IMG/VR virus record: IMGVR_UViG_3300017729_000040
Coordinates: 1 to 23,418 of that record
Source of the DNA: a virus
Strand: one strand, 5' to 3'
DNA length: 23,418 nt
The translations under genes and the position numbers were made by a program. This document shows, one piece after another, positions 3,001 to 23,383 of this stretch. Within the stretch, counting starts at the first letter, position 1; every line of letters starts with the position of its first letter. The notes under the pieces were generated by a model. It ran no database searches and was not told the DNA's origin. It saw only the letters and a program-made list of their open reading frames with translations.

Positions 3001-6000
3001 CCATAACCATTGGTAGCATGTGGTTTACCTGCTCTCCAACCTAACTCTTTTCCATAAGTAATACCATTAATAGTACCGTGGTCTTGTGTTCCAACTGGGT
3101 TGTATCCACTCGCTCCATACCCAATACCAACACCAGGTGTATCTAACCTAGATACTCTTGAATAAAACCGCTCTCTATTGTTACCATCTTCATCATCCTT
3201 TGGTGCATCGCTCCAATTGTGATGTCGTCCATATATATGATTATGATGGTCAGGGTCACTTTGGTAAGAAATCTCATCAACTACATAAACATCTTGATCT
3301 GGGTCTTGTTTAAACCTAAACAACTGCCCCACCGTCCTCATCTTGCTTAAAAAATCATTTACCTCAGAGCTCTTAGCGAATTCCTTACCTGATGAAACTC
3401 CTAAGTCAATATATCTCCCATTACCCCATATACCCCTACCGTGAGTTGGGTGATCAAAAGATGATCTATTACACGAGCTACCACCATCCTTTCTATCACC
3501 CCTAGTGTTACCAGCAGCGTCAATAAATACCATATTAGTACTATTCTGCCACCAATGTTTAACGTTGTTTCTAACTGGACACCCACCACCATTAGAGTCC
3601 CTTATAGTCCCGTTACCACTAGTAAACCATAAGTCTGCTGTATCTTGGTTATCACCGAAGTCCCATTCAGTGTTCATACCAACAACCTCCCAATTCGCAA
3701 AAGGTGATGGAGCGCTTGTTGCCATGCTATTGTTTGGGAAATTGAAGTATCGAAGTGGGTATGATGATGTAACTACGTACTCTGTATTTGTTGTTTTTAG
3801 TAAATTATTCAACAAAACCAAGTCTTTGTATATCTTAACGAAGAACCTACCGTCAAACTCAGGTTTATTTTCTACCTTATGCTCTGCTAATTCAACTGAT
3901 AAACCGTTTATTATACCACTAACACTTCCGTCAGACGAAGCAAACTCTACGTCTTCTTCAAACCTACCATCAATCCTTATTTTGTAATAACCACCGGAGG
4001 CGCTACTCGCGTGTTTATTGACTTTATACCAATTTGACTTACTACCTGCATTACTTACAAGCCTGATCCTTAAGGATGAATCGTTCGATATTTTAATTAG
4101 ATTAGTTATGTCAAACTCATCACTCCACTTGTTTTGAGACATGTAAATGAGGTTTCTATCTAAAAAAGGAAAACCAGTACCGCTAGACGTACCTATAATA
4201 GTCTTACTGCCATTATTAGAAACAGACCCAAGTTCTTTAACTGTTGTTTTCACAAACTCAGGAGCATCATTTGATATTGCTAGAATTTTATACCTAGCCT
4301 CATCAACAACAGGTTTGTTAGTGTCGTGTTCTTTTTTTAGTATTAGGAAAGTATCTTCGTCAACTTTGTTTCGAGATGAAGATTGGAATGATAACCATAT
4401 GTTACCATCCTCAGCGTTGTACCACCTATCCATAGCCATGTTGTAATACTCATTAGAAGTTTCTTTTACAAACAACTTCCATGTAGTGGCCCAATCTGGT
4501 GGTCTAGAACCTATGGTTACATCTAATTTATTCAAGGTGCTAGCATTAACCTTTTCAACTTTTAAAGTACTAAGCTCCGTATCACCAGCTAAAACAGGTG
4601 TTTCACGTCCATACTCATCTCCGTATACTACTCCAATTTGATACGTTCTAAGGGATTTGATTGATTTTCCTGGAGAAGGGAACCCTTCTAAGTTGTCTAA
4701 TCCGTTTAGCGGATCACTTGATGTTCCATGGGGTGCGTTTAAAGGTGCGTCAACACTGTTTAGTGTAACTGTTATTTTGGGTTTTATCTCAGAATCTTGA
4801 CTACTAGCTGTCAAGTCGTAATTTTGCACATAATTACCGTACACAAGTCTATTGGCACTTATCTCTTGAGCTAAAGCTACTCTAGGCACATTATCCCATT
4901 GTCTAAGTAATTGGTTAGCGGGAAGGGTAGCATGTATTAACTCTGATTTTAACTTGAATTCACCCCTACCTGAAGAAGTACCTGGCCACAATGGATCTTC
5001 ATCTGTAGCTTTAATAGTTTCTACAGTATATATGTTAGGCGAAACAGAATCTTTATATAAAATATCTATCTCTATAACATCTTGCGGTCTAAGAGAATCC
5101 TCAACTACGTAATCCTTAATCTTTAAACTTCTAAGGTTGTTGGTCATACCTAAGTTATAACCTTTCTTAGCCAAGAAGTCATAGTCACTAGGTAAAAAAG
5201 CTATCTCAGACCACGGTGAGAATGTTGAGTACTCCCCGTCTTCATATTTATATCTACTAGCAAATCTAACGAATTTATGTTCAAACAATGGTTTTGATTG
5301 CTCTAACCTAGCAAACCACTGTTTTTGTTCTGTGTCTATAGCTTCTCTATCTATACTTTGTATTCTAAAGTTATATGTTCCTGAGCTAGGTACTCCACCA
5401 CCCGGTCCAGTTACATTAATCACAGTTGCTCTAACATCGTGTTCAGTAAAACTATCTTCATTAGCATCTGGATCTTGAGAAAATATAATTATATCTCCAA
5501 CCCTCCAATCAACAGGTCCAGCAAAAGATAAACTACCAAAAGTATCCCCCACTTTTTTAACTTCAAAGGTATTATTTAAGAATGAATTAAAAGCGTTTGT
5601 ACCAATCATGTTGGTGGTAATAGAGCTAATGGCGTTAACAGCCCCAGTAGTTGGGTGCAACCTACTATCTTCTGTACTTGACATTTCTAGCGTAGGTGGT
5701 GTTAAAGGACCTTTTCTTATAACCGTTATGTTTTCTTCACTAACATACCAAGGTTCAGTTGCAGTCCTTGACTTTACTCTTAGACTTTGTTTTACGTCTG
5801 GTCTAGTGGTTAATCTAGTGTGAAACATGTCATTATCACCATCATATATACTTATTGATGGAGAATACTCCTCGCTACCCCCAGTACCTGATATTGATCT
5901 TTTTATGTTTATTTTCTTTGGCTCAGTGTGATTGTCTGTCCAAAACAACATACCATCTATTATGTTGATACCGGTTATTAACCTATCCTTATTAAAGTTT

Positions 6001-6644
6001 AAAACTCTATCTGCTGTAAACGAAACGTAGTCACCTGTTTCCGATGTTAATAAGTGTGGTTTTTGATCTTTCAAAACAAACACATTCCACTGATCAGTGC
6101 CAGCCCAATATGTTAAGTTGTTTACATACATCGGTGTTTGGTTAACACCATCAATATTACCATAACATTTCATACCTGGTCTAACACCAGTCGTATTAGA
6201 AGTATCTCCATTAGCACTAATATGAAAGTGATCTAAAGGATTACCTCCGTGGTCATCACTAGATAGAGTTGTTACAACAGCATATTGATCTACAAACACA
6301 TATTTAATAACGCCAGACTTAGCATCATACTCTAATATATAATCCTTCCACTTACCAACAGTGTTAGAATTATCTTCCGCGTAGAAGTCAGGTCCAGCTA
6401 CTAACCAGTATATTTTATCCTCTTTATCATGAGCTATTGAAGCAACACAAGTACTACCCGCTGGAACGACACCTAAACCAACAAGTGTATTACCCAAGAT
6501 TGTTTGAGCAGCACCAACGTCTGATCCGTCTGATGCTGATATCTGGAGATTTAACGCGTCTCTATATTCTCCTGGTGGTATAATTCTCTCATCAAAATCT
6601 TTGTTCATTTTGCTTTTTGAGAAATTTCGAGTAGACTCTGGCAT
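1..6644 (-). CDS. Giant virion protein, muzzle/neck-tail-like with adhesin-type C-terminal part (partial, C-terminus outside window)
   Basis: One reading frame stays open from an ATG at 6644 to the window edge, giving at least 2,214 codons. I chose 6644 over the in-frame ATG at 6608 because it lies 3 bases after the stop of the preceding gene, and the extra residues (MPESTRNFSKSK) continue into MNKDFDERIIPPGEYRDALN, a start I recall from large structural proteins of marine phages. Internal landmarks are a NRLVYGNYVQNY motif, a His/Asp/Asn-rich stretch near residues 1100-1130 (DPDHHNHIYGRHH), a SYGSIQKLHTRD region near residue 1470, and three GCTD...DDGSC repeats at residues 1861-1937. The part after about residue 1600 looks like a beta-rich surface or receptor-binding region. 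It follows two ring/adaptor-like genes, the position of the crAss-like muzzle. Function is inferred; the structural-protein call is firm, the exact part is not. Confidence 0.8.
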   Translation of the reverse strand, partial: MPESTRNFSKSKMNKDFDERIIPPGEYRDALNLQISASDGSDVGAAQTILGNTLVGLGVVPAGSTCVASIAHDKEDKIYWLVAGPDFYAEDNSNTVGKWKDYILEYDAKSGVIKYVFVDQYAVVTTLSSDDHGGNPLDHFHISANGDTSNTTGVRPGMKCYGNIDGVNQTPMYVNNLTYWAGTDQWNVFVLKDQKPHLLTSETGDYVSFTADRVLNFNKDRLITGINIIDGMLFWTDNHTEPKKINIKRSISGTGGSEEYSPSISIYDGDNDMFHTRLTTRPDVKQSLRVKSRTATEPWYVSEENITVIRKGPLTPPTLEMSSTEDSRLHPTTGAVNAISSITTNMIGTNAFNSFLNNTFEVKKVGDTFGSLSFAGPVDWRVGDIIIFSQDPDANEDSFTEHDVRATVINVTGPGGGVPSSGTYNFRIQSIDREAIDTEQKQWFARLEQSKPLFEHKFVRFASRYKYEDGEYSTFSPWSEIAFLPSDYDFLAKKGYNLGMTNNLRSLKIKDYVVEDSLRPQDVIEIDILYKDSVSPNIYTVETIKATDEDPLWPGTSSGRGEFKLKSELIHATLPANQLLRQWDNVPRVALAQEISANRLVYGNYVQNYDLTASSQDSEIKPKITVTLNSVDAPLNAPHGTSSDPLNGLDNLEGFPSPGKSIKSLRTYQIGVVYGDEYGRETPVLAGDTELSTLKVEKVNASTLNKLDVTIGSRPPDWATTWKLFVKETSNEYYNMAMDRWYNAEDGNIWLSFQSSSRNKVDEDTFLILKKEHDTNKPVVDEARYKILAISNDAPEFVKTTVKELGSVSNNGSKTIIGTSSGTGFPFLDRNLIYMSQNKWSDEFDITNLIKISNDSSLRIRLVSNAGSKSNWYKVNKHASSASGGYYKIRIDGRFEEDVEFASSDGSVSGIINGLSVELAEHKVENKPEFDGRFFVKIYKDLVLLNNLLKTTNTEYVVTSSYPLRYFNFPNNSMATSAPSPFANWEVVGMNTEWDFGDNQDTADLWFTSGNGTIRDSNGGGCPVRNNVKHWWQNSTNMVFIDAAGNTRGDRKDGGSSCNRSSFDHPTHGRGIWGNGRYIDLGVSSGKEFAKSSEVNDFLSKMRTVGQLFRFKQDPDQDVYVVDEISYQSDPDHHNHIYGRHHNWSDAPKDDEDGNNRERFYSRVSRLDTPGVGIGYGASGYNPVGTQDHGTINGITYGKELGWRAGKPHATNGYGNTPNAGGTASAVINNIGAQGSISDYRNHAKYFHNVEFLEPYTDDPEKMSSDNPSIWETEPKEDIGLDIYYEISQAYPLSINSATNEQYAAIGSIVENETSPFVGASTKISSWSANTVTLTSSTNVNIAIGDVIRFTSKDGGVVRLVASSVNTGSTFDVYSLRDSSPNTGLAPHNQTVTLPWFNCYAFGNGIESNRIRDDYNQTYIDKGVKASSVLAEKYREERIKTGLIHSGIYNSTSGINKLNQFIQAESITKTLNPSYGSIQKLHTRDTNIVVLHEDKIMKVMADKDALFNADGSSNVALSKNFLGTAIPFAGEYGISTNPESFASDAGRLYFSDRARGAVLRLSGDGLTNISDKGMKDWFADNLDPLTQSVLGSFDDRKSIYNITIKGLYPVEDNTLVSAVEDKAPDCVDCEDDAITTEPTININEPIAVDRSGIQVLRTAQNFKKGDFTEKGSGVSYYNSAVTLSFSEQAGGWISFKSFLPENGVSLNNEYYTFSDGEMWQHHSNETRNNFYGIQYDSNVTMIFNDNPSVVKSYGSINYEGTQAKITKDINDSNYYNLWDKTGWYIGNITTDQQTASTLEFKEKEGKWFSDIKGETTTLSNLDEREFSVQGLGVVGDISTDGKERDDQCLTVKPVLSECASGCTDETALNYDPNAILDDGSCEYPVLGCTDINSLNYNPLATLDDGSCEYCIYGCTDINSSNYNPLATCDDGSCADAISPCVVYLNTTNKNSFGSGANGDLIGYDPGLNTVVFLSAHDTYPHAYPEYNDIATATLGSDGGRIFFTNGAWNDIEVRDIVSLSPWVPKNTSVLLEDIGTDSAGNFRGSNGLHAISENKIVTISWSSTGVQSAIVSEATVDVTSASPFTFVEKWDLGAKIETLTVTHNSKPHHLEFERVIGDFIVANEGGVDYLYVTAYTKLIDNETGFRAQYNGSMDVSSILKFKYSDGTPIAFHSIFNDDISQFNVTEGTSSGGVNPLRGALAVFSWDYGTGNELH
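834..1064 (-). repeat. Three tandem 26-residue GCTD/DDGSC repeats within the giant virion protein
   Basis: Three consecutive 78-bp units begin at 1064, 986 and 908. Each encodes GCTD, then about 7 residues, NY(D/N)P, then DDGSC. Units 2 and 3 are almost identical up to DDGSC (GCTDINS(L/S)NYNPLAT). The same type of repeat is common in secreted and surface proteins of flavobacteria. Its Asp-rich and Cys-containing pattern suggests small disulfide- or calcium-stabilised modules; that role is an inference. Confidence 0.85.
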
Positions 6645-9401: not shown

Positions 9402-10832
9402 TTACCCTTTGATTAACATAAAGTTGTTAGCTCCTTGAACTACTAAACATCTTTCAGATAAGAAGTGCATCTCCATAGCATCTAAATCAGAAGTAGAAGC
9501 TCCAACAGAACCAGTAGTCCATGTTTTCATCTTTCTGTCTTCCATTTGAGAAGCTCTGTATCTTACGTGTAAGAATGGTCTCTTCAAGTTTTTACCAAGG
9601 TTTTGGTCATAAACTGTAGAAACACCCGCAGGGCAGATAAGTCCTTTGATAGCACCTAAACCATTAGAAGCATCACCAGTAGCAACATCAATCACACCAC
9701 CTCTTGTAGCTTTATCGTTTAAGTATTTCCAGTCAGACTTGTAGAAATCGTAAGATCCACGTCTGAAACCATCAAAACCTAAGTTCAATGCCATTTCAGC
9801 TTCATTGTCAAACACACCATAAGAAGCGTTTGCGCCAGGTCCAGCTAAAGCAGAAAGCATATCATCGATACCGATAGACTGAGCTCTCTGTAAGAACATC
9901 ATGTTTTCTTCAATAGAACCTTGCTTATCAAACTCAGCTAAGATGTTGTTGAAATCAGTTAAAGCAGAAACTTCAGTAGTAATGTTACCTCTGTTTTCAA
10001 CAGCAGAGAATAAACCTTCAGTACCAGCTGTTCCAGCTCCATTAGCACCTAAAGCAGCGTCTAATTGTGTACCTGAAACTAATTCAGATTCAACCATAGT
10101 CATTTCTAAGTAATCTGTAAATCTAGTTCTAGTATCACCAGCAGCCTTCAAGTACCATAAGTAACCTGATTGACCGTCTTCACCAGAAATCTCAACCCAT
10201 CCAACTGCAGAAGCATCAGATCCAGAAACCTCGTACTTATCTTTTAAGATAATTGGCTTGTTAGAGAAAGACTTGAACTTCGGAGCATTAGCACCATCTC
10301 TTCCAGTATCACCTTTCTTATACTCAGAACCAAATACGAATAAACTAACATCACCAGATGTTGGTAATGTACCATTGTAAGCGATTAACGTAATAGTAGC
10401 AGCAGGTGTTGCAGCATTTTTCTCAACTGTAGATACATAGGCTTTAATTGTCAAAGCTGCAGTTGATAAAACCACTGTATCACCAACTCTAATACCGTGG
10501 TTAACACCCGCAGTGTGACCATCAATATCATTAGTAATAGTAAATACACCATTAGCACCAGCCGTTGCCACGTAGGATAAATGTAATCTACCTTGCTCAG
10601 ACCAAACAACTTGGTCAGCAGTCATAGACTCTTCAGCCCCTACTTTAGATAAAAATCCAGCTACAGTTCTGTTTCCAAAAACTTCAGCCTCTTTTTCCAT
10701 AAGGTCTGGTAAATATTGTTGTGCCCAGGAAGCTCCTGATGCAGATGCGAAGTCGATATAATTCGAGCTAAGCGTTTGTTTTACTGGAGAAGGTACCGAG
10801 TTAAGGTTTGCTCCAGGGTTTAAATTTGCCAT
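9402..10832 (-). CDS. Major capsid protein (HK97-fold type, inferred)
   Basis: A 476-residue protein following the scaffold-like gene by 19 bases and followed by a strong terminator, the usual place and size for a capsid protein of crAss-like or related phages. The N-terminus (MANLNPGANLNSVPSPVKQT) is flexible; residues about 24-85 carry YIDFASASGASWAQQYLPDL, then MEKEAEVFGNRTVAGFL and ADQVVWSEQGRLHLSY, a pattern of helix plus beta-hairpin seen in HK97-like capsid N-arms. The middle has a beta-rich segment of about 100 residues (90-190), which may be an inserted surface domain, and the end has CLVVQGANNFMLIKG. The codons look different from those of neighbours, with more ACC, GCA and AAG, consistent with high expression. 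No catalytic motif is present. The capsid call rests on position, size and sequence character. Confidence 0.8.
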   Translation of the reverse strand: MANLNPGANLNSVPSPVKQTLSSNYIDFASASGASWAQQYLPDLMEKEAEVFGNRTVAGFLSKVGAEESMTADQVVWSEQGRLHLSYVATAGANGVFTITNDIDGHTAGVNHGIRVGDTVVLSTAALTIKAYVSTVEKNAATPAATITLIAYNGTLPTSGDVSLFVFGSEYKKGDTGRDGANAPKFKSFSNKPIILKDKYEVSGSDASAVGWVEISGEDGQSGYLWYLKAAGDTRTRFTDYLEMTMVESELVSGTQLDAALGANGAGTAGTEGLFSAVENRGNITTEVSALTDFNNILAEFDKQGSIEENMMFLQRAQSIGIDDMLSALAGPGANASYGVFDNEAEMALNLGFDGFRRGSYDFYKSDWKYLNDKATRGGVIDVATGDASNGLGAIKGLICPAGVSTVYDQNLGKNLKRPFLHVRYRASQMEDRKMKTWTTGSVGASTSDLDAMEMHFLSERCLVVQGANNFMLIKG

Positions 10833-12000: not shown

Positions 12001-14412
12001 TTATCTAGGTCCAAATCCTCCAGAATTAACTCCGCCGTTTAAAACGTCATTACCTGATGACTCGAAATCCTTTGGTTTACCACCATTGTTCTTTTGATCT
12101 ATCATAGCTGATTGTTGTGAAGCTTGCATTTTAACTCTTTGATCTTTTCTATCTTCCTTATACTCGTCTTTATTGTTTGCCCCAGCAGCATCCATCTTCC
12201 TAAGCCTCATGTTTATTTCAAACTCATGATCCATCAACCCTCTCTTAACTTCGGCTTCAGTATTTAGTAATTGAGTTTTAAAACCTGTCTTTGCTTCTTC
12301 TAATTGTATTTGAGAAGCTGTTAAGTCTTGTTGTTTCTTGACCTCTGCTGCCGCAGCTGCTTCTGATGCTTTAGCGTTCGCATCTGCTTGAGCTGCCATA
12401 TTTTCTTGCTCTGCTTTTTGTTTTAAATCAGCTCTCTTCTTCCTACGTATCTTAAGCATTTGATTTGCTAGCTTAAGGTTCCTAACCTCTCTTAAATCTA
12501 TAGCGTCTTCTAAGTCTATCAACTGTTGTGATAAAGCTTGTTGTATATTGTTTTCGACTAATTGCCTCTCTTCGTCATCCGGTGTTAACTCTATAAATAT
12601 ACCAAAATCATATAGATGTAGGTTTTGCATTTCTTCCAACGTAGCTACATTGTGTCTACCTATTTGATGGATAAAAGCTTCCTTGGTTGGAGAGTACTCT
12701 ATGATATCAGATATCCTAAGTGAAAGCATTTCGCAAACCTCAGCTGTTAAAAACAATCCAGATTGTAATATATGTCTTGTTGCTGTATTAGAGTTTGCCG
12801 CTGCCATCTTCTGTATCCCAACTAACGACTTAGCATCTGGAGTGCTAGCGTCTCTTGCTTCATTTAAACCAGTCACATCTCTGATCATTTGCAGGTAGTA
12901 ATTGTAAGTCTGTATTAAACTCTGTAGTTTACCACCACCGTTACCACTAGATATTTCTTGAATAGGTATCTTACCAGGATTCATATCCCCATCACTTGTG
13001 AAACTTCTACCAATAACAGAACCTGTTTGGAAGAACATGTTTAACGCTTCTTGTGGATTATAGTTCGTACCATTACCTAAATCGATTTCAGCTAGACCAT
13101 CTGCATCTAAATACACTCCATCTGGAACCATTCTAGATAGTACTTGTTGTAACTTTAAATGTGTCAGCTGGATCATATCAGCAAATCCAGTTATTCTACC
13201 AACTAAAGATTCAATCCTACCCTTATAAACTCTTGGAGCAACTATAGAGTAGTTCATTCTAACTTTAGTAAAGTCACTTTTCTCACGCATCATGTTGTCA
13301 GACCTCTCCCATTTAATAAGTCTATCAGTACCTAGTATTAAAGCACCTTCATATACAACTTCAATAGACCTATGTAATTTTGTGAAATTACCATCCATAT
13401 CTTCAGGTGGGTTAAAACTATCATCTTTACTTATAGCCTTCTCACCTCCAGTACCGGTTTTCTTAACTTTATAAACCTCGTTCATATAGGTTTTGTAATT
13501 GAAGTATAAAACTTGGACTTTATTATTATCCATAGAGTTAGACGCTTGGTTCTCATAAGACCTTCCACCTCCACTCTTAACTATATCTTCTAAATCCTCA
13601 TGCTTTAAGTGCGGGAACTCCTTAACCAACTCATTAATCGGAATTGGCTTAACCTCCCCAACATAGTATATATCTTCAAAATAAGGTGAATCAGTGTAGG
13701 AATAAACTAGGTTAGCTGGGTCAACATACTCAACTACAGCTCCCTCAGATGTATTGAATGTTGTTTTTACAGCGCCAATACCTAATACCGTTAAATCATA
13801 AAAGAACCTTCTCTTTATTAAATCGTACTTACTACCATCTAAAAGAACGTTTAAAGCTTGCTCTTCCGCTATCTCTACTTGTTGCTTGTAATTAAGTTGC
13901 ATGTGTAATTCTAACTCATCTTTAGAGTCAGGTAATTCTTCTGGAGGTGTACTTGCTAGATCTACGTTTAAAGATTCTTTAGCCGCGGCATCAAACTCTT
14001 TAAGCCTCATATCTTTTAGTATACCCTCCATATACTCTGTCCTCTTACTCACTCCAAATGGATCCTGTGAATAAGCTTTTATATCGTATGTTCTATCTGA
14101 AATACCATTAACAACTATATCTACAAACTTTGATATAATAGGTACTGGTTTCCAATCTAAATTCAAATATGATAAATCACCATTTATAGATAACTCATTT
14201 TTATACTTCCTAATATCTTGTTCTCCCCTAGCATATAACCTAAGCTCGTGAAAGCTTTTAATGTTATTAGTAAACCTATTACGCCCGTTGCTATTGTCAA
14301 ACCACTCAGCTTCTATGGCTTGAGCGATGGACAACCCGTAGTCATAACTAGATTTCTCTAGATCGCTAACGACTTGACTTGGAAAATAATTTCTTACAAC
14401 AGACTCTGCCAT
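12001..14412 (-). CDS. Portal protein
   Basis: An 803-residue protein directly after the large terminase (2-base gap). Such a size fits crAss-like portals. Residues about 87-103 read WKPVPIISKFVDIVVNGI, a portal-type helix, followed by SDRTYDIKAYSQDP. The middle contains IYYVGEVKPIPINELVKEFP and a stretch with SIVAPRVYKGRIESLVGRITG and DMIQLTHLKLQQVLSRMVPDG that fits the stem and wing, then MIRDVTGLNEARDASTPDAK before the C-terminal helices. From about residue 650 it becomes a long Ala/Lys/Glu/Gln-rich coiled coil (AQADANAKASEAAAAAEV), as expected of a barrel domain, and ends in a Gly/Ser/Asn-rich tail. It would form the dodecameric DNA channel at one vertex. Confidence 0.85.
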   Translation of the reverse strand: MAESVVRNYFPSQVVSDLEKSSYDYGLSIAQAIEAEWFDNSNGRNRFTNNIKSFHELRLYARGEQDIRKYKNELSINGDLSYLNLDWKPVPIISKFVDIVVNGISDRTYDIKAYSQDPFGVSKRTEYMEGILKDMRLKEFDAAAKESLNVDLASTPPEELPDSKDELELHMQLNYKQQVEIAEEQALNVLLDGSKYDLIKRRFFYDLTVLGIGAVKTTFNTSEGAVVEYVDPANLVYSYTDSPYFEDIYYVGEVKPIPINELVKEFPHLKHEDLEDIVKSGGGRSYENQASNSMDNNKVQVLYFNYKTYMNEVYKVKKTGTGGEKAISKDDSFNPPEDMDGNFTKLHRSIEVVYEGALILGTDRLIKWERSDNMMREKSDFTKVRMNYSIVAPRVYKGRIESLVGRITGFADMIQLTHLKLQQVLSRMVPDGVYLDADGLAEIDLGNGTNYNPQEALNMFFQTGSVIGRSFTSDGDMNPGKIPIQEISSGNGGGKLQSLIQTYNYYLQMIRDVTGLNEARDASTPDAKSLVGIQKMAAANSNTATRHILQSGLFLTAEVCEMLSLRISDIIEYSPTKEAFIHQIGRHNVATLEEMQNLHLYDFGIFIELTPDDEERQLVENNIQQALSQQLIDLEDAIDLREVRNLKLANQMLKIRRKKRADLKQKAEQENMAAQADANAKASEAAAAAEVKKQQDLTASQIQLEEAKTGFKTQLLNTEAEVKRGLMDHEFEINMRLRKMDAAGANNKDEYKEDRKDQRVKMQASQQSAMIDQKNNGGKPKDFESSGNDVLNGGVNSGGFGPR

Positions 14413-14414
14413 AT

Positions 14415-16649
14415 TTATTTTTGTGTTATTATTGTTGATGTTCCTCCAGTATTATCATACCTTGAGATACTAATATTTAGCTGTGGTTTCTCCACTTTTG
14501 CGCTAGGCGAGTACAGATGTCTGTTACAAGCCATAATTGCATACCCAGAGCTGATAGTGGCATCATGCTTTGTTCTCTTAGTTATATCAAACCTACTCCA
14601 GTCATTTAGAGTGGCATTAAAGTACATAGTCCCATAGTTTCCGTTTTCTTTAGCCCCTATGTGCTCTTTTATATGCATTTCAATTGCAGCTGCATGCGCG
14701 TGTATTATATCTTGACTTGAAGAAGGTATACCTCCAACCTCTTTTTCAGCAACCGATAGTTTGTTCCAAACTTTATCTGGCCTATTCATACTAAACCCCC
14801 TGTAACCTCTTCTCCTCAAGTAGTACAGTAAACGTGGTTTGTTGTTCTCAGCTAGCAGCGGCATACCATAAAAAGCTATAGCCATCAACACATCTTCAAA
14901 AAACATCTCAGCAGTTTGTGGTCTAGCTAAGTACTCTAAGAAAAACTGAGAAGGTGGACAATCTTCCATGCTAAATGTGGTTAACCCATGTAAAGCTCCT
15001 TTCGAACCCTTACCGTCAACAGTTCCTGATATATCGTAACTATCACAACCAAAAGCTCCCATGTGCTCGTTACCTGGGTACCTAACTCCATTTTTCATGT
15101 GGTAGTTGTTCTGCAGGTGGCTAGGTGGAACCCAACTCACTTTAAACCTACCTTTTGGATCTGGATAGAATGTAACCTTACTATCTTTTATACCGTTCCC
15201 CCATTGAAAATTACCTTGAGTAACTACAGAGGAATTTCCAATTCCCTCATTGTAATCTATTTGCTCGTATATTTTAACTAAGTTGAATATAGAGTTTTTA
15301 GATTCATCTCTAAAAGCGTGCTCTTCTGACCTTGGGAACTGTCGGTAAAATTCGTTTAAACCATCCATGTCATCCCTAAGTCCATCCGCTTCGTTCTCCC
15401 AGTGCTCAATAACACCTGTTTCTATAATATCTCCCAGTGGACCTATTGTTTCTACCGTAGGTGTATCGAATACAGGGTGACCGTACTGATCAATAAAACC
15501 CTCATAGTTCCACTCCATTGGTATAAATAAAGAATATAAACCAGAACTAGTCTGCCCATTCTTATTTCGTTTGTTAACGTTTGAAGATGTATATAATTTC
15601 TTGAAATTTAAACCACCTTTGTCCAAAGCATTAGAAGTAGAACCCATCATACACTTACCAGTTATTCTAGCACCTAATCGTAAACAGGTTTTTGTAACCC
15701 TCCAGTTGTTTAAGATATTATTTGGTGCCTCCCATTTTCCACTCTCATCATGTACTAGTAATACTAGTTTTTCACCATCATAACTATTATCACCTGTATT
15801 CTTCCAATCTATAGTTGTATCAAGCCCTTCCATTATCTCAACAGGCTCAGATGATCTCATCTTTTTCTTCGTAAGCTTACTAGCTGGAACTCTATACGCT
15901 AATTCTGTTTTAGGCCTATCCATACCGTCTTGAATAGGTTTGAAGAAGAATGGATAATTAACGCTAATAGGTACAACTTTGTCAGTAAACATTTTTTTAG
16001 CATCTTGCCCTGTTTTTGACAATATACCATATCTACTATCGCTTGATATAGTTGCTTGGTTAACGATTTCATTAGAACCCATGAAGGAGAACCCAGAACG
16101 TCTATTTTTAAGGTAGCACATTCCATAACACCTAGTGTCAGCTTTACACCCCTCCCAGAATATATAAAACAATCTATTAGCTTCTCTAAAATCAGCTTGT
16201 CCAACATCAATCTTTGCCCACTGTAAATACATGTAATGTGCACCTGTTATGTATGTACCAACTCCTTTGTTCATAAACCAGAAACCCTCGTCTCTCCTTT
16301 TAAACTCTTCGTCTATATAATCAATCCAATCATTTTTAAAGGACTCTGGCTGCGACTCCCAGTCAAATATACTCTTAATGTTTTTTAACTGCTTAGGGTA
16401 CTCGAAACGTGTCCATTTTTGGTCATGAGCTTTGTTTGATATACTGTGGGTTTTTTTAGGTTGCTTAGGTAAAGCTACATGAAAACCATTTATACTATAT
16501 ATCTCCCCAATCTGACCAGTCTTAGATATTACAACTATATCGTGTTCTTTGTTGTAACCATACTTCCAAGACTTAGAGGCATTAAGTTTATTAACAGTTG
16601 TTCTTTTTAGTGGTTCAACTACTTCGTATAAGGCTTGTTTATAAGCCAT
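14415..16649 (-). CDS. terL: Terminase large subunit (DNA-packaging ATPase and nuclease)
   Basis: A 744-residue protein. The start overlaps the preceding stop in TAATG, so it is likely translationally coupled to the upstream gene. The ATPase part has a degenerate Walker A-like stretch at residues 179-192 (YLKNRRSGFSFMGS, lacking a canonical GKT/GKS) and a Walker B at 295-302 (KLVLLVHDE, with D301 and probable catalytic E302). The C-terminal RNase H-like nuclease part has GAFGCDSYDISG with D536, a second acidic site near E601, and KHDATISSGYAIMA with D696, in the order expected for three metal-binding acids. A C-terminal tail of about 35 residues is Ser/Thr-rich. The protein starts MAYKQ, like several small neighbours. 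It would package concatemeric DNA through the portal. Confidence 0.9.
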   Translation of the reverse strand: MAYKQALYEVVEPLKRTTVNKLNASKSWKYGYNKEHDIVVISKTGQIGEIYSINGFHVALPKQPKKTHSISNKAHDQKWTRFEYPKQLKNIKSIFDWESQPESFKNDWIDYIDEEFKRRDEGFWFMNKGVGTYITGAHYMYLQWAKIDVGQADFREANRLFYIFWEGCKADTRCYGMCYLKNRRSGFSFMGSNEIVNQATISSDSRYGILSKTGQDAKKMFTDKVVPISVNYPFFFKPIQDGMDRPKTELAYRVPASKLTKKKMRSSEPVEIMEGLDTTIDWKNTGDNSYDGEKLVLLVHDESGKWEAPNNILNNWRVTKTCLRLGARITGKCMMGSTSNALDKGGLNFKKLYTSSNVNKRNKNGQTSSGLYSLFIPMEWNYEGFIDQYGHPVFDTPTVETIGPLGDIIETGVIEHWENEADGLRDDMDGLNEFYRQFPRSEEHAFRDESKNSIFNLVKIYEQIDYNEGIGNSSVVTQGNFQWGNGIKDSKVTFYPDPKGRFKVSWVPPSHLQNNYHMKNGVRYPGNEHMGAFGCDSYDISGTVDGKGSKGALHGLTTFSMEDCPPSQFFLEYLARPQTAEMFFEDVLMAIAFYGMPLLAENNKPRLLYYLRRRGYRGFSMNRPDKVWNKLSVAEKEVGGIPSSSQDIIHAHAAAIEMHIKEHIGAKENGNYGTMYFNATLNDWSRFDITKRTKHDATISSGYAIMACNRHLYSPSAKVEKPQLNISISRYDNTGGTSTIITQK

Positions 16650-16924
16650 TATTTCTTAGACTTTTTCTCTGCAAAACCTGTGAAAGAAGTTGTTTTATCT
16701 TCCTTGGGTTTTCCTTCCAAAGCATTCTCTTCATCTTGTATCCTATTGAGTATCTCAAAAGCATCAAAGATTGCGAGTTTTTTAGTAGCAGCAGCGTTTT
16801 TAAGTCTGTCTGCTGTAATATCGTCTCCACTATCAACAATAGCTGCCTTTGCAACCTTAATGAGTTCTTCGACCGCATCACGCCCAGCTTGGATTATATT
16901 CTTCTTCGTCTCCCTTGTATTCAT
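16649..16924 (-). CDS. Probable small terminase subunit
   Basis: A 91-residue helical, charged protein immediately before the large terminase, sharing a 1-nt TAATG junction. It reads MNTRETKKNIIQAGRDAVEE then a helix and ITADRLKNAAATKKLAIFDA, ending in a Lys-rich tail. I chose the ATG at 16924 rather than the one at 16972: the longer form adds MERDFIESTTILLQLN and overlaps the upstream gene by 95 nt instead of 47, while 16924 has the A/T-rich leader seen before other starts here. Small size, helices and location fit a DNA-recognition subunit; no clear HTH is evident, so this is an inference. It could instead be an unrelated head-gene neighbour. Confidence 0.6.
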   Translation of the reverse strand: MNTRETKKNIIQAGRDAVEELIKVAKAAIVDSGDDITADRLKNAAATKKLAIFDAFEILNRIQDEENALEGKPKEDKTTSFTGFAEKKSKK

Positions 16925-17462
16925 ATTTAATTGTAATAAAATTGTTGTAGACTCTATAAAGTCTCTTTCCATCTATAATAAACTCGTATTCAGAATCTGG
17001 TTTAAAACCAACTAAATCACCATTTGCGAAACCCTCATTACTGGAGTACTTAACCACTCCAACTAAAGGTCTTTCGACATCCAAGCTTAACTCGTCCGTT
17101 GATTTTATTGGTTGAACGAAGCAGAAGTCTCCCACCGGCTCGTATTCACCATCTCTCTTCCTAAGGAATATTTGTTCTACATCTAAAGCATACAGATCTT
17201 CGCTTATATAGTTCCTACTGTTCTTCTCCTCCCCTCTTATGTTGTGCCACCGTCTAAAAACATTGTGATGTACTGTTAGTATATCGCCTATTTTAATGTT
17301 ATAACTATTAACCCTTGGTAACCCAACTACTTCGGCTTCTCTATTTACAAATTGATGATTAAAGACCTCAGTATTTAAAATGAGATCTTTATCACCAACC
17401 TTCTTTGTGTTGTTATAACGATTTCCTAGAGGCTTTACTATGAAATCATATACACTATCCAT
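16878..17462 (-). CDS. Tandem GroES-like (Cpn10) domain protein, putative phage co-chaperonin
   Basis: A 194-residue protein in which two GroES-like barrels can be traced. Domain 1 (about 1-105) has YDFIVKPL, a loop with DLILNTE (residues 26-32) like the GroES mobile loop Ile-Val-Leu tripeptide, AEVVGLP, IKIGDILTVHH and SEDLYALDVEQIFL. Domain 2 (about 106-182) has PVGDFCFVQPIK, PLVGVVKYSSNEGFANGDLV and FIIDGKRLYRVYNNFITIKY, matching the GroES order of strand, glycine turn, GD-V and IDG-Y-V-I. Domain 2 lacks an obvious hydrophobic mobile-loop tripeptide. GroES is about 97 residues, so this is twice the normal length. The start shares TAATG with the 73-aa gene. It may cap the phage or host GroEL, or may reuse the fold for another virion role. 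Confidence 0.65.
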   Translation of the reverse strand: MDSVYDFIVKPLGNRYNNTKKVGDKDLILNTEVFNHQFVNREAEVVGLPRVNSYNIKIGDILTVHHNVFRRWHNIRGEEKNSRNYISEDLYALDVEQIFLRKRDGEYEPVGDFCFVQPIKSTDELSLDVERPLVGVVKYSSNEGFANGDLVGFKPDSEYEFIIDGKRLYRVYNNFITIKYEYKGDEEEYNPSWA

Positions 17463-17984: not shown

Positions 17985-18377
17985 CTATTTTTTTGTTTTT
18001 TCTAAAGATCGACCACCAAAATAAGCACCGATCACCGTTATTAATACTATTTGTAATAAGTCTGTCCACTTAGGTTCAACTATAAACTTTATTGTACCAG
18101 CGTCAATGAATATCATTAAAACTGTTGATACAACTAAAAAAGCTAAAACTAGTGGTCTTATATTTTTAGCTAACCACGAATCAGAGTTCATATCAGCTTC
18201 CCAGCGAGACGTAACTTGCTTCTCCATCTCTATCTCATAATTACTTATAAGCTCCTTTATTTTTAACTCAGCAGCAAGTTTTTCTTCTTTAGAGGTGTGT
18301 AGGTCATCTATGATACCACCTACACTTTTAACAAGTTCGGTTGCTCCAGAGGAGAATATGTTGCTTAGAATACTCAT
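17985..18377 (-). CDS. Holin-like membrane protein
   Basis: A 130-residue protein. An N-terminal amphipathic part (SILSNIFSSGATELVKSVGG) is followed by a charged helix (about 28-62), then two strong membrane segments: residues 74-91 (PLVLAFLVVSTVLMIFI) and 105-120 (TDLLQIVLITVIGAY), and a basic tail (GGRSLEKTKK). The motif WLAKNIRPLVLA before the first segment and GAYFGGRSLEK after the second match the 3-TM holin family known from gene transfer agents and marine phages. It would make holes in the inner membrane at lysis. No endolysin is in this window. It overlaps the preceding gene by 4 nt (ATGA). Confidence 0.7.
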   Translation of the reverse strand: MSILSNIFSSGATELVKSVGGIIDDLHTSKEEKLAAELKIKELISNYEIEMEKQVTSRWEADMNSDSWLAKNIRPLVLAFLVVSTVLMIFIDAGTIKFIVEPKWTDLLQIVLITVIGAYFGGRSLEKTKK

Positions 18378-18721
18378 CTTTTTTTGTTGCTAGCTTTCCG
18401 CTTATTTTGTGCGTCACTAATGAAGTCATTAATAGTTGGTACTGAACCATGATGCTCGTCATTCATAAACCTCATATGCTCGTCTTCTTGCTTATCTTTT
18501 GATTCTTCATTATTTGTCAAAGTAGTTGCATCTCCATCTTCATATGCTATTTTTGCATCATCACTAGCAGTTTTTGAGTTTGGTTTTTTCATTAAATAAT
18601 CCGTAGATTTAACCGCTTCTTCATTTTGACTCTTTAGAAAGTCATCTTGCTTTTTCTTAAGAGCTGTTTTATGTTGTTCAGACCCCTCTGTCATTGGGAA
18701 TTCATTCTGTTTATATGCCAT
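18374..18721 (-). CDS. Hydrophilic MAY-start protein, unknown function
   Basis: A 115-residue, highly charged protein with no membrane segment, probably disordered: MAYKQNEFPMTEGSEQHKTA then Lys/Asp/Glu/Asn-rich sequence, ending QNKRKASNKKR. The start resembles those of other small proteins in the window (MAYKM, MAYIQ, MAYTQ, MAFKL). It overlaps the holin-like gene by 4 nt, so expression is linked. Its leader holds two copies of AATACAAA directly before the ATG. A virion-internal or assembly role is possible; nothing in the sequence proves it. Confidence 0.6.
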   Translation of the reverse strand: MAYKQNEFPMTEGSEQHKTALKKKQDDFLKSQNEEAVKSTDYLMKKPNSKTASDDAKIAYEDGDATTLTNNEESKDKQEDEHMRFMNDEHHGSVPTINDFISDAQNKRKASNKKR

Positions 18722-19110: not shown

Positions 19111-19485
19111 TTAATGTTGTTCCCAAGGAAAGTCTTTGCTACCTTCTGGTAGCCATTCTCCTTGATAGTTAATAAATCCGTCTTTTCGCTCGTATGATTC
19201 CCCCATCCACGTTAACGAGTTATCTGTATAAGATAGTTTACCCGTTTTCATATCCACCTGGTGCTTCATCTCATGCATAAGTATCATTCTCTCGTGCTCA
19301 CAACCTGGTTCGATCTTATCACTAATAAAAATACTACCATCGTTATTAGCTTCTCCATCGATACCCTTACCCAGTTTCTTTCTATATATGGATGTTCCGG
19401 GTACTGATAAACCTACGGTCTTACCATGGTTAGTATTAAAAGTACTCTTTTTGGTGGCTTTGCCTCTAGGTAGTTTAAATGCCAT
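19111..19485 (-). CDS. HExxH zincin-like putative metallopeptidase with MAF-type N-terminus
   Basis: A 124-residue protein. Residues 71-75 are HEMKH in the context MILMHEMKHQVD, the zinc-binding helix of zincin peptidases, with Glu72 as probable catalytic base. The C-terminal segment (WMGESYERKDG, then GSKDFPWEQH) may supply a third ligand such as Glu122. The first 40 residues are basic (MAFKLPRGKATKKSTFN) and look like an added tag rather than part of the enzyme. Related short zincins occur in marine phages near structural genes. Possible roles are maturation of virion proteins or cleavage of a host target; neither is proven. The start overlaps the upstream gene by 11 nt. Confidence 0.65.
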   Translation of the reverse strand: MAFKLPRGKATKKSTFNTNHGKTVGLSVPGTSIYRKKLGKGIDGEANNDGSIFISDKIEPGCEHERMILMHEMKHQVDMKTGKLSYTDNSLTWMGESYERKDGFINYQGEWLPEGSKDFPWEQH

Positions 19486-19924: not shown

Positions 19925-20236
19925 TTAAACAACCCCAGATTCATAGGTTATAGCGGTAACCCTCATTAAAACCTCTTTCCCTGGTACCATATCCATAACA
20001 TTGTCACCAGGTACATCGGTTGCTAACAGGTTTATAATACCATTTACAACACTCCTCTCCCAACCACTACAGGTTAACTTAACGGTACTAGTGTAATTTG
20101 TGTGTGAGTGCTGATTTCTAAGTAATGGCTCAAAGTATATATATACGAAACCATCAACACTCTCAATCCCAACTATCCTAGTTACAGGGACGCAAACATT
20201 AAGGTCACTACTTATTTCAAAGTTTAATAATTTCAT
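19925..20236 (-). CDS. Small protein of unknown function
   Basis: A 103-residue protein with alternating beta strands (VCVPVTRIVGIESVDGFVYI, then YTSTVKLTCSG) and one short helix (WERSVVNGIINLLAT), ending VLMRVTAITYESGVV. I do not recognise the family. It starts 15 bases after GroES and stops 3 bases before the winged-helix-like gene, so it belongs to the same transcript. No membrane segment or catalytic motif is visible. Confidence 0.6.
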   Translation of the reverse strand: MKLLNFEISSDLNVCVPVTRIVGIESVDGFVYIYFEPLLRNQHSHTNYTSTVKLTCSGWERSVVNGIINLLATDVPGDNVMDMVPGKEVLMRVTAITYESGVV

Positions 20237-20251
20237 TCTGTTTTGTTTTTT

Positions 20252-20509
20252 TTATTCAACTAGCACTATGTCCCTAACTGTTATTACTTGGTATAATTTA
20301 CCTTCATCAGTGACACTATGACCAGCGTGTTTGTCGTAGAAAACAACATCTCCATCAACCACTCCCTCAACTAGGTTTCCAGCGGAAATTATAGTTCCTT
20401 TTGAATACCTATTATCTAGATCAGTGTTTTCATTTAAAATTAAACCACTAGTCTTTTTTGGTGGTAGTTTTATCTTTTCTACCAACACGTAACTATTAAT
20501 TGCTTTCAT
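20252..20509 (-). CDS. groS: GroES co-chaperonin (Cpn10)
   Basis: An 85-residue protein, shorter than bacterial GroES (about 97). It shows the Cpn10 order: INSYVLVEKIK, a mobile loop with SGLILNE (hydrophobic Leu-Ile-Leu at 23-25, equivalent to Ile-Val-Leu of E. coli GroES), KGTIISAGN, VDGDVVFYDKHAG and YQVITVRDIVLVE. The roof loop appears shortened. It follows groL and overlaps it by 14 nt; the usual bacterial order is groS then groL, so the order here is reversed. It should cap the phage GroEL ring during the folding cycle. Confidence 0.9.
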   Translation of the reverse strand: MKAINSYVLVEKIKLPPKKTSGLILNENTDLDNRYSKGTIISAGNLVEGVVDGDVVFYDKHAGHSVTDEGKLYQVITVRDIVLVE

Positions 20510-22061
20510 CGCCTCTCATATTTGAAATTACACAATTAGCAGATATAATAGTGGAAACTACACTCACCGCATTTTTGAGGGCCGATTTTGTAACCAAAAC
20601 CGGATCTATAATCCCTTCGGTTAACATATCAACTGCCTCTCCAGTAACCACGTTAATACCAAGCCCAGGTGACATATCTCCTTCGTATTGTATACCAGCA
20701 TTTGCTAATACCGTTAAGTAAGGAGCTCTTATAGCTTCTAGTAATATTCCTTCCCCCTCTGTTTCAGGGGTAATGTTTCTTGATGCATTTAATAGCGCAA
20801 CACCACCTCCAGCAACAACACCTTCCTTTAAAGCTGCTTTAGTTGCGTATATTGCGTCTTCCACTCTATCTTTCTTTTCTTTCAACTCAACCTTAGAGTT
20901 AGCACCAACCTTCACAACTCCAACCGAACCGGATAGCATAGCTAACCTATTTTCAATCTTCTTTTGCATGAATGGATTAGTCTCTTTCTTTAGAACCTCA
21001 TTGATCTGCTCTATCCTCTCTGTAACACCCTCTGGGACACTTTCTAGTGTCAATACTGTGTTTTGCGCACTTGTTACAGCGGAATCAGCTTCACCTAAGT
21101 GATCGATACTAATTAAATCTAGATCATCACCTAGTTCTTCGTTTATAACAGTAGCGCCAGTTAATAGTGCTAGGTCATCAATTGCTTCTGCTTTCATAGC
21201 TCCAAAACCAGGCGTATCAATTATGTTCACCTTTAGAACGTTTTTAACCTTGTTCATTAAAAGCGCCGATTTTACCTGCTGGCTTACTGAAGCCACTATA
21301 AGTAAAGATCGGTTATTCTTTATAACGTATTCTAATATACCTTCTATCTTCCTTATGTTAGGTATTTCACTGGCTACAATAAGTACAAGTGGTCTGTCTA
21401 ATTCTGCCACCATCTTATCTTGATTAGTAACCAAATGTTGTGATGTAAGACCACACTCTATCTGAGCTCCATCTACAACCTCAACATATGTATCCTCTGT
21501 CGGGGAATCTTCCATTAGAACAACCCCGTTTGATCCGACAGCTTCATAAGCTTCCGAGATAATACTACCAAGAGCATCGTCATTGTTACAACTAATAACT
21601 GACACATCCCTAAGCATCTCACCTTCTACTTTTATCGATGTATTGTTTAAGTATTCTATAACCTTAGTCATCCCAGAATCTACACCAGACTTAATGTCCC
21701 TAATAGATAGTTCTGAGTGTTTATCCGCCATAGCTGTATTCAATAGCGATTCAGCAAGGACCGTAGCTGTAGTAGTACCGTCACCTGCTTCTTTCACTGT
21801 ATTCCTAGCTGCTTCCTTTACTAAGGTAGCACCCATGTTTTCAACCGGGTCATATAAGACTACAGATTCTGCTACTGTAACACCGTCTTTTGTTATAACC
21901 GGATTTCCTCTCGCATCTTCATATATTACACACTTACCAGATGCCCCTAAGGTTGATTTTACCGCCCTAGCCAACTTTTCCACCCCTTTGGCTATTTTAT
22001 TACTAGCCTCGTTATCAAAGTTAAGATCTTTGATTAAGAGACTTGGTTGATTGTACTCCAT
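20496..22061 (-). CDS. groL: GroEL chaperonin, phage-encoded (group I Cpn60)
   Basis: A 521-residue, apparently full-length group I chaperonin. Conserved items are ITKDGVTVAE with D59 (E. coli D52), GDGTTTATVLAE with D94 (D87), DTPGFG at 282-287, EDAIYATKAA with D402 (D398), EGVVAGGGVALL and IIDPVLVTKSAL with D486 (D495), so ATP hydrolysis is likely retained. Unusual features: the ATP-pocket LGPKG is LGASG (39-43), the apical G-Y-L-S-P-Y-F segment is GLTSQHL (204-210), and there is no C-terminal GGM tail. The gene starts in an A/T leader with no Shine-Dalgarno and overlaps groS. It would refold phage structural proteins in the cytoplasm. Confidence 0.95.
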   Translation of the reverse strand: MEYNQPSLLIKDLNFDNEASNKIAKGVEKLARAVKSTLGASGKCVIYEDARGNPVITKDGVTVAESVVLYDPVENMGATLVKEAARNTVKEAGDGTTTATVLAESLLNTAMADKHSELSIRDIKSGVDSGMTKVIEYLNNTSIKVEGEMLRDVSVISCNNDDALGSIISEAYEAVGSNGVVLMEDSPTEDTYVEVVDGAQIECGLTSQHLVTNQDKMVAELDRPLVLIVASEIPNIRKIEGILEYVIKNNRSLLIVASVSQQVKSALLMNKVKNVLKVNIIDTPGFGAMKAEAIDDLALLTGATVINEELGDDLDLISIDHLGEADSAVTSAQNTVLTLESVPEGVTERIEQINEVLKKETNPFMQKKIENRLAMLSGSVGVVKVGANSKVELKEKKDRVEDAIYATKAALKEGVVAGGGVALLNASRNITPETEGEGILLEAIRAPYLTVLANAGIQYEGDMSPGLGINVVTGEAVDMLTEGIIDPVLVTKSALKNAVSVVSTIISANCVISNMRGDESN

Positions 22062-22126
22062 GTCTATATTTTATATTATTTAATTTAATTGTACTTCTTG
22101 TGTTTACAGGTTTTTTTTATATATAC
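22062..22126 (-). promoter_or_regulatory. A/T-rich leader of groL, possible promoter region
   Basis: The 65 bases before the groL ATG are one of the few real gaps upstream of 9400. They are AT-rich with AATTAAATTAAATAATATAA near the start codon. A promoter here would allow separate chaperonin expression, but no clear consensus was found, so this is a weak positional call. Confidence 0.25.
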
Positions 22127-22369
22127 CTACTTGTTTTCCTTAACAAAGTTAGATTTGGACTTATCTAAAGCTTTCTTCCAAGATTTCCAAGCCTCACTAT
22201 TCTTATCTGCTGGTTCAGCTCTAAGCAATCTCTCCGTTTGAGCCGAGTTCATAACTCCCTTTTCATCTTTGTAAACCGCGTTGCTATCTACTTTAACCTC
22301 CTCTTTACTAGCTTTTCTTTTATCACCAGGTCCAGTGAAGAACAATGGTGTCTTTTGTGTATATGCCAT
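22127..22369 (-). CDS. Small hydrophilic protein with MAYxQKTPLFF start (copy B)
   Basis: An 80-residue Lys/Glu/Ala-rich protein starting MAYTQKTPLFFTGPGDKRKA and ending WKKALDKSKSNFVKENK. Its first 11 residues match those of the preceding gene (MAYIQKTPLFF) at 10 positions, after which the two diverge. No fold or motif is recognised. It is the last gene before groL. The leader consists of a 13-bp tandem repeat. Confidence 0.6.
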   Translation of the reverse strand: MAYTQKTPLFFTGPGDKRKASKEEVKVDSNAVYKDEKGVMNSAQTERLLRAEPADKNSEAWKSWKKALDKSKSNFVKENK

Positions 22370-22371
22370 AA

Positions 22372-22410
22372 TTGTTTTATTTATTTGTTTTATTTATTTG
22401 TTTTATTATT
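22372..22410 (-). repeat. Three copies of a 13-bp A/T repeat at the junction of two MAY-start genes
   Basis: Units of ttgttttatttat (plus strand) lie at 22372, 22385 and 22398, the last with an altered end. The repeat covers the stop region of one gene (encoding NNKTNK) and the leader of the next. Confidence 0.8.
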
Positions 22411-22686
22411 CATTACTTTAATACCGCCCTCGTAGTGTCCGATCTCCTCTCCTTTGTCGTTAAAGATCTTATCTTGGTCTTGAGCTTCACCACCATCTGT
22501 AACCGTAGTGTTTTCCTTTCTTTTCGCGGCTAAATGATTTTCATAATCATCCATGTTAGCATTACCTATGTTAGGTGTCTCCTTTTTTTCCTTCCCCTTC
22601 TTTTTCTTCTTATCATCAACCTTAACAACAGTTCCATCCGACTGTGTTGTTTGAAAGAATAGTGGGGTTTTTTGTATATATGCCAT
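22390..22686 (-). CDS. Small hydrophilic protein with MAYxQKTPLFF start (copy A)
   Basis: A 98-residue protein starting MAYIQKTPLFFQTTQSDGTV, followed by a lysine run (KVDDKKKKKGKEKKE) and an Asp/Asn/Gly-rich remainder ending KVMNNKTNK. It is predicted to be mostly disordered. The N-terminus pairs with that of the next gene. It starts 2 bases after the stop of the preceding gene, implying translational coupling. Function is unknown. Confidence 0.6.
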   Translation of the reverse strand: MAYIQKTPLFFQTTQSDGTVVKVDDKKKKKGKEKKETPNIGNANMDDYENHLAAKRKENTTVTDGGEAQDQDKIFNDKGEEIGHYEGGIKVMNNKTNK

Positions 22687-22688
22687 GA

Positions 22689-23063
22689 CTAAGCCACTAC
22701 GTTTTGATCAGTCTCTGGTTGAGGTACCGCTGCGATAGCGTTAGGATCTTCTTGAGTAGCTGCATTTGGATCTACATTAGCTGTTTGATCTCCAGTCTGT
22801 GTTGTTTGTGTTGTTTGTGATGTAAAAGCTGGGTTCTTACCTCTAATACTTCCGATAGGATCTGCAACAGCGTTTAAAAATTTATTCTTTGGAGCGAACT
22901 TTTTTACTAAAGCACCCACTGGGTTCAGTAATGTCTTTAAGAAACCTTTGTTAGGTGAATCTCCTGGTAGAGCAGATTTACTGTAATTAGCGTTTGTCCC
23001 ATGTTTCGATGTTAAATCGAATTCTGCGTAGTTTTTCCCTGTGTTTTTTAATCTAAATGCCAT
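22689..23063 (-). CDS. MAF-start hydrophilic protein, unknown function
   Basis: A 124-residue protein starting MAFRLKNTGKNYAEFDLTSK. A central stretch (FLKTLLNPVGALVKKFAPK) may be an amphipathic helix. The C-terminal 45 residues are low-complexity, rich in Thr, Gln, Asn, Pro and Ala (TSQTTQTTQTGDQ, then EDPNAIAAVPQPE). No known family is recognised. The leader is a run of A on the coding strand. A scaffold, internal or anti-host role is possible. Confidence 0.55.
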   Translation of the reverse strand: MAFRLKNTGKNYAEFDLTSKHGTNANYSKSALPGDSPNKGFLKTLLNPVGALVKKFAPKNKFLNAVADPIGSIRGKNPAFTSQTTQTTQTGDQTANVDPNAATQEDPNAIAAVPQPETDQNVVA

Positions 23064-23080: not shown

Positions 23081-23383
23081 TTAAGTTCTTTTTTTATATC
23101 CAGGGTCAGCGTATGTATTACTACCCTCAGTCTTAGTGCCCTTTCCACGATTACCTCTATTCTCTTCAATTGATACAAACGATTGGGTTTTATGATCCCA
23201 ATCTTTACCCGTTAAATCTATACCCTTCTTTAGAGCAGCACGTCTAGCTTTTTGAGCACCAGCTCTATATTTCTTTCTCTTATCAGAATTAGCCATAGCG
23301 AGATTAGCCGCATTCTCTGAAGCAGTCTTAACTTCCTTCAAAGGTGTCTTGTAATATAAAGGTCCATTCATCTTGTATGCCAT
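23081..23383 (-). CDS. MAYK-start basic protein, unknown function
   Basis: A 100-residue, strongly basic protein: MAYKMNGPLYYKTPLKEVKT, then a predicted helix rich in Ala, Lys and Arg (KYRAGAQKARRAALKKG), then a Gly/Asn/Lys-rich end (GYKKRT). The start resembles the other MAY proteins, with (P/L)-aromatic residues and TPL. Its charge would suit nucleic-acid or capsid-interior contact, but this is speculation. The true operon start lies beyond the window; only 35 AT-rich bases of leader (23384-23418) are visible. Confidence 0.55.
   Translation of the reverse strand: MAYKMNGPLYYKTPLKEVKTASENAANLAMANSDKRKKYRAGAQKARRAALKKGIDLTGKDWDHKTQSFVSIEENRGNRGKGTKTEGSNTYADPGYKKRT

Follow-up and report, generated by a model that had tools for sequence, protein, structure and literature searches.

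The occurrence of a complete GroEL/GroES pair among phage genes raises the question of whether the virus supplies a working folding machine of its own, and from where such a machine was obtained. The window, which is the whole stretch of DNA analysed, is the linear virus contig IMGVR_UViG_3300017729_000040, 23,418 bases long and a fragment of a larger genome. The reading preferred here, with a probability of roughly 85%, is that the phage makes a GroEL together with lids matched to it, so that late proteins fold without the host GroEL/ES. The groEL and groES genes are located upstream of the genes for the terminase large subunit (TerL, 14415..16649; PHROG 6681, 6e-168), the portal protein (12001..14412; PHROG 6547, 6e-149) and a 476-aa virion structural protein whose gene occupies the major-capsid position (9402..10832; PHROG 13704, 4e-95), all on the minus strand. 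The PHROG matches thus bear out the arrangement given in the original prediction, which had also placed phage genes on both sides of the pair; the recognised genes other than the chaperonins are indeed all phage, comprising TerL, portal, several virion proteins and a holin (PHROG or profile matches). The holin gene (17985..18377, minus strand; PHROG 3427) lies between groES and a further, tandem co-chaperonin gene, and a small metallopeptidase-like protein with an HExxH motif (HEMKH; 19111..19485, minus strand) is kept in 128 related loci. Both lie between groES and the tandem gene, so that the cluster contains, besides the chaperonin genes, a holin and perhaps a lytic enzyme.

An assembly join at 20 or 22 kb is ruled out in practice, as the original prediction had required, because the flanking genes are colinear with those of related contigs. 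GroES is offset from groEL by -13 both here and in the median of the related contigs, the next conserved gene by +575 here versus +658, and the gene upstream of groEL by -2887 versus -2667. AT-rich leaders with no evident Shine-Dalgarno sequence precede groEL and the adjoining genes (20220-22400). Such leaders are common in Bacteroidota genes, which fits the inferred host phylum. A promoter scan of the AT-rich stretch gave a score no better than shuffles, and since promoter scans were uninformative the operon structure was read from gene spacing alone. The host is probably a flavobacterial bacterium, as judged from relatives; host and life cycle are known only through these because the record is a 23.4-kb fragment. 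Two further features of the window were observed. The reading frame at 3-6644 runs off the contig end and encodes more than 2,214 aa with repeats of the form GCTDxxALNYDPxAxxDDGSCEY, which resemble calcium-binding thrombospondin-3-like repeats. Several small late proteins share an MA[YF][KTIR] start (MAYTQKTPLFF, MAYIQKTPLFF, MAYKMNGPLYY, MAYKQNEFPM and MAFRLKN), and starts of this kind are located at 22127-22369, 22390-22686, 22689-23063, 23081-23383, 18374-18721 and the TerL start, 16649. Open reading frames of 60-250 aa beginning in this manner number 0.040 per kb in related phage loci versus 0.0053 in bacterial loci (about 8x), and the shared start may be a tag at the N terminus of virion proteins.

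The groEL gene (20496..22061, minus strand) is intact from ATG to stop and encodes a protein of 521 aa that matches Cpn60_TCP1 (PF00118) over residues 30-514 (E=5.8e-47) and PHROG 5725, 'chaperonin groEL' (3.3e-131). The Asp equivalents of E. coli D52, D87, D398 and D495, which form the ATP site, are all present and are invariant across the 22 close relatives sampled (22/22). A full-length Cpn60 domain carrying the ATP-site Asp residues, together with the adjacent Cpn10 gene, identifies the protein as a group I chaperonin. In the apical domain, the residues with which E. coli GroEL binds substrate and GroES are remodelled alike in this sample: Y203 (E. coli numbering) is replaced by His in 20 of 22 close relatives and L234 by Gln in all 22, the window's GroEL having Glu at the latter position. 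A chaperonin that is active on clients and with a lid of its own would be expected to show this combination of a retained ATP site and a shared apical remodelling. The residues R452, E461, S463 and V464, through which the two rings of E. coli GroEL make contact, are not conserved, and the protein lacks the C-terminal GGM tail. Judged from the sequence, its active oligomer may therefore differ from the double seven-membered rings with staggered contacts that GroEL forms.

The groES gene (20252..20509, minus strand), also intact from ATG to stop, starts inside the last codons of groEL with a 14-bp overlap and encodes an 85-aa single-domain co-chaperonin. The complete pair had thus been placed exactly in the original prediction, which recognised the chaperonin content correctly as far as these two genes and overlooked a second, tandem co-chaperonin beside the terminase gene. 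The 85-aa protein matches Cpn10 (PF00166, E=2.3e-9) and PHROG 3188, 'co-chaperonin GroES' (1e-12), and its structural model superposes on Cpn10 structures with a Z score of 11.4 and a deviation of 1.4 A over 75 residues. The mobile loop carries the motif SGLIL; a Gly and a mostly hydrophobic triad are kept at this place, with G22 present in 99 of 99 sequences. Alignments show the protein to be shortened at the place of the roof hairpin of other Cpn10s, which is absent. With a beta-barrel and a mobile loop displaying Gly and the hydrophobic triad, the protein has the defining features of Cpn10/GroES.

The overlooked gene (16878..17462, minus strand) lies immediately ahead of TerL, from which a single 107-aa gene separates it, and encodes a 194-aa protein that matches PHROG 13932, 'co-chaperonin GroES' (1.1e-16). 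No domain was recognised in it by Pfam, and comparison of its sequence with the PDB gave nothing useful, the best match being an unrelated LuxR regulator (E=0.083), so a fold search was needed. An AlphaFold2 model built from 42 related phage sequences displays two GroES folds arranged head to tail (pLDDT 75.7, pTM 0.72), an architecture shared with Cpn20-type co-chaperonins. Among solved structures the model is closest to 7ekq chain Q, with a Z score of 11.0 and a deviation of 3.4 A over 156 residues; the related chain R of that entry is named Cpn20 co-chaperonin, while T4 gp31 and bacterial GroES each match one domain. Domain 1 presents a hydrophobic triad (L/F/I-I/V-L/V) at the mobile-loop position in 39 of 42 sequences, in a loop unlike the classical GGIVL. 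The domain 2 loop (residues 122-130) is modelled with low confidence and has no clear Gly-hydrophobic motif.

The tandem protein could form a mixed lid with GroES, act alone or have a structural role. That it is a virion or packaging component reusing the GroES fold, rather than a co-chaperonin, is somewhat unlikely. Its gene invariably lies directly before TerL and adjoins structural genes as a core gene in Pervagoviridae (PMC8776804), and neither the second-domain loop nor the departure of the first from GGIVL speaks for a lid; against this, the triad of domain 1 is at the position expected of a mobile loop, the whole fold matches Cpn20, and long records always pair the tandem protein with a phage GroEL. 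The more specific proposal that GroES and the tandem protein assemble on the phage GroEL as a mixed seven-domain lid, by analogy with chloroplast Cpn10/Cpn20, is tentative and rather doubtful. If true, such a lid would be phage-made, non-uniform and suited to phage clients that are large or awkward.

A phage-encoded folding system would here comprise three parts, namely GroEL, the single-domain GroES and the Cpn20-like tandem GroES. The GroEL ring would hydrolyse ATP and enclose phage proteins under a phage-made lid, allowing the capsid and other late proteins to fold independently of host GroEL/ES. The 476-aa protein in the major-capsid position is a candidate for the main client, by its position and the precedent of T4. 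The start of groES inside groEL would allow translational coupling, and coupling, together with a position immediately ahead of the terminase, portal and capsid genes, would make the chaperonin available at morphogenesis. It is quite improbable that the phage lids instead serve host GroEL, as T4 gp31 does, and that the phage GroEL has another job such as a holdase. The latter has been proposed for the chaperonin of phage EL, which works without encapsulation (PMC7185714), and the loss of inter-ring contacts in the window's GroEL is consistent with it; however, the ATP site is intact, and in nearly all relatives groEL and groES overlap and are inherited side by side, which suggests that GroEL and GroES work together.

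The phage-made chaperonin and its lids are not peculiar to the window. IMG/VR loci were gathered through TerL, GroEL or the tandem protein, and the counts that follow describe best-hit samples, not population frequencies. The groES gene is directly downstream of groEL for 101 of 102 unique phage GroELs. The tandem gene is directly before TerL in all 235 unique cases in which the contig extends far enough, a further 10 unique tandem proteins having the contig end before the TerL position. In this otherwise uniform set, a short TerL fragment at 7536-8126 of L183 is the sole TerL match lacking an adjacent tandem call. A search of IMG/VR with the tandem protein of phage Panino as query found no relatives. 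In all 88 loci of the window's clade, some of which share a contig, groEL and the tandem gene have the same orientation, with groEL 1.6-6 kb upstream; in the elemovirus relatives groEL has the opposite orientation (7/7 loci). The related records of at least 48 kb that had been selected by TerL or the tandem protein, independently of GroEL, all encode GroEL (18 of 18). The five records lacking it are fragments of 36-42 kb, and the tandem protein was present in 25 of 25 long records tested. Among GenBank phages TerL matches were restricted to Flavobacteriia phages (of Flavobacterium, Cellulophaga, Tenacibaculum and Maribacter) and one spring-water podovirus genome. The window's PHROG and TerL matches include the core proteins of phi38:1-like phages, that is TerL, portal, Cpn10 and structural proteins; these kin span Pervagoviridae and the unassigned Elemovirus. 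The chaperonin genes are core, probably late genes in these mostly marine, Flavobacteriia-infecting podovirus relatives (phi38:1, elemovirus and Panino kin), and the set of GroEL and two lids is standard in this large group of aquatic phages, which had been catalogued before. The original prediction had regarded linkage to a late operon with groL before groS as uncommon, but both are usual in this lineage, as shown by the 101 unique GroELs and the 18 long records; the genes are annotated in GenBank (MW202828, the elemoviruses and phi38:1), and GroEL in phages of this kind was published in 2017 (PMC5332604).

The origin of the chaperonin was judged from a careful tree of 46 rows and 200 bootstrap trees, a first, larger tree containing unreliable long branches (OBP, AR9, JM2012 and phi14:2). 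In the 46-row tree a branch supported at 100/97, recovered in 99% of bootstraps, sets the phage lineage apart, and the GroELs of Vibrio phage, immuto and Bacteroides phage fall on the bacterial side. The window's GroEL is nested in its IMG/VR clade, within a group of Flavobacteriia-phage relatives outside all sampled bacteria. It is at most 72% identical to that of other phage contigs (72% to L086), and its best bacterial matches are Flavobacteriia, the closest being Galbibacter at about 41% identity. In 79 of 80 bacterial loci groES precedes groEL, the opposite of the groL-groS order of the phage lineage. Branch support, bacterial identity of about 41% or less and the opposite gene order together point to an old phage chaperonin, vertically kept and of single origin within the lineage, other phage groups having gained GroEL separately on the evidence of the same comparisons. 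That one phage recently captured a host groESL operon is hardly credible: many phage genes are host-derived and the best bacterial matches are Flavobacteriia, but bacterial GroELs are without exception about 40% identical, the phage sequences group separately, the gene order is reversed and the same locus recurs in dozens of contigs. A recent host copy of groEL is refuted by the trees, which show no clustering with one bacterial genus, the outcome that would have told against the original prediction. In this reading one abundant lineage of aquatic phages has kept a private GroEL/GroES by descent, as a core possession rather than one acquired sporadically, and the Cpn20-type two-domain co-chaperonin, tied to terminase, is equally universal in it. 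The elemoviruses, phi38:1, Calle and Panino offer culturable models for asking why a phage keeps its own chaperonin and why it keeps two kinds of lid.

The closest annotated parallels are found among these kin. Podoviridae sp. ctfjg026 (MW202828, Manatee Spring; complete genome, 60.8 kb) displays groEL followed by groES on one strand and a tandem gene, annotated hypothetical, one gene before a TerL that is 62% identical. In contrast to the window, its groEL/ES is more distant from the tandem gene, by about 8 kb, and its GroEL is only 38% identical. Similarly, the Elemovirus phages elemoA-F of Flavobacterium from the Baltic Sea have annotated GroEL, GroES and a second GroES directly before TerL, although groEL/ES is on the strand opposite the late genes and GroEL is about 37% identical (tblastn). 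Cellulophaga phage phi38:1 and Calle (Pervagoviridae) encode GroEL, Cpn10 and an extra 'co-chaperonin GroES', gp089, but Cpn10 precedes GroEL with one gene between and the pair is in the replication region. In Panino, GroEL and the tandem gene are annotated and a weak GroES match adjoins groEL. GroEL was reported in 36 genomes of a phi38:1-related group of marine Flavobacteriaceae phages (Nishimura 2017, PMC5332604), and cpn10 was listed among the core proteins of Pervagoviridae (Bartlau 2021, PMC8776804). The chaperonins of phages EL, OBP and AR9 are also phage-coded GroEL relatives, yet they are far more divergent, with longer branches, and work without a co-chaperonin (PMC5934643, PMC7185714), whereas the window's GroEL has an adjacent groES and stands apart from them in the larger tree, where their branches are very long and unsure. 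T4 gp31, like the window's GroES, is a phage-coded GroES-fold lid without a roof hairpin (PMC6318259; alignments), and it provides a slightly larger, more open cage for the T4 capsid protein (PMC6318259). Unlike the window, T4 has no GroEL of its own, and the gp31 mobile loop is longer. For the tandem protein the counterpart is chloroplast Cpn20 (Chlamydomonas, PDB 7ekq), which also comprises two GroES folds in tandem; sequence identity is 15-16%, the two may have arisen separately, and the likeness of the phage protein is known from its model. A 2018 review described tandem co-chaperonins as specific to chloroplasts, and a limited literature search, which is weak evidence, found no paper pointing out this architecture in phages, where it is an under-described feature. 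Chloroplast Cpn20 coexists with a single-domain Cpn10, as the tandem protein does with GroES in the window (PMC5780408), and in chloroplasts the two form mixed lids (PMC4242682, PMC5780408).
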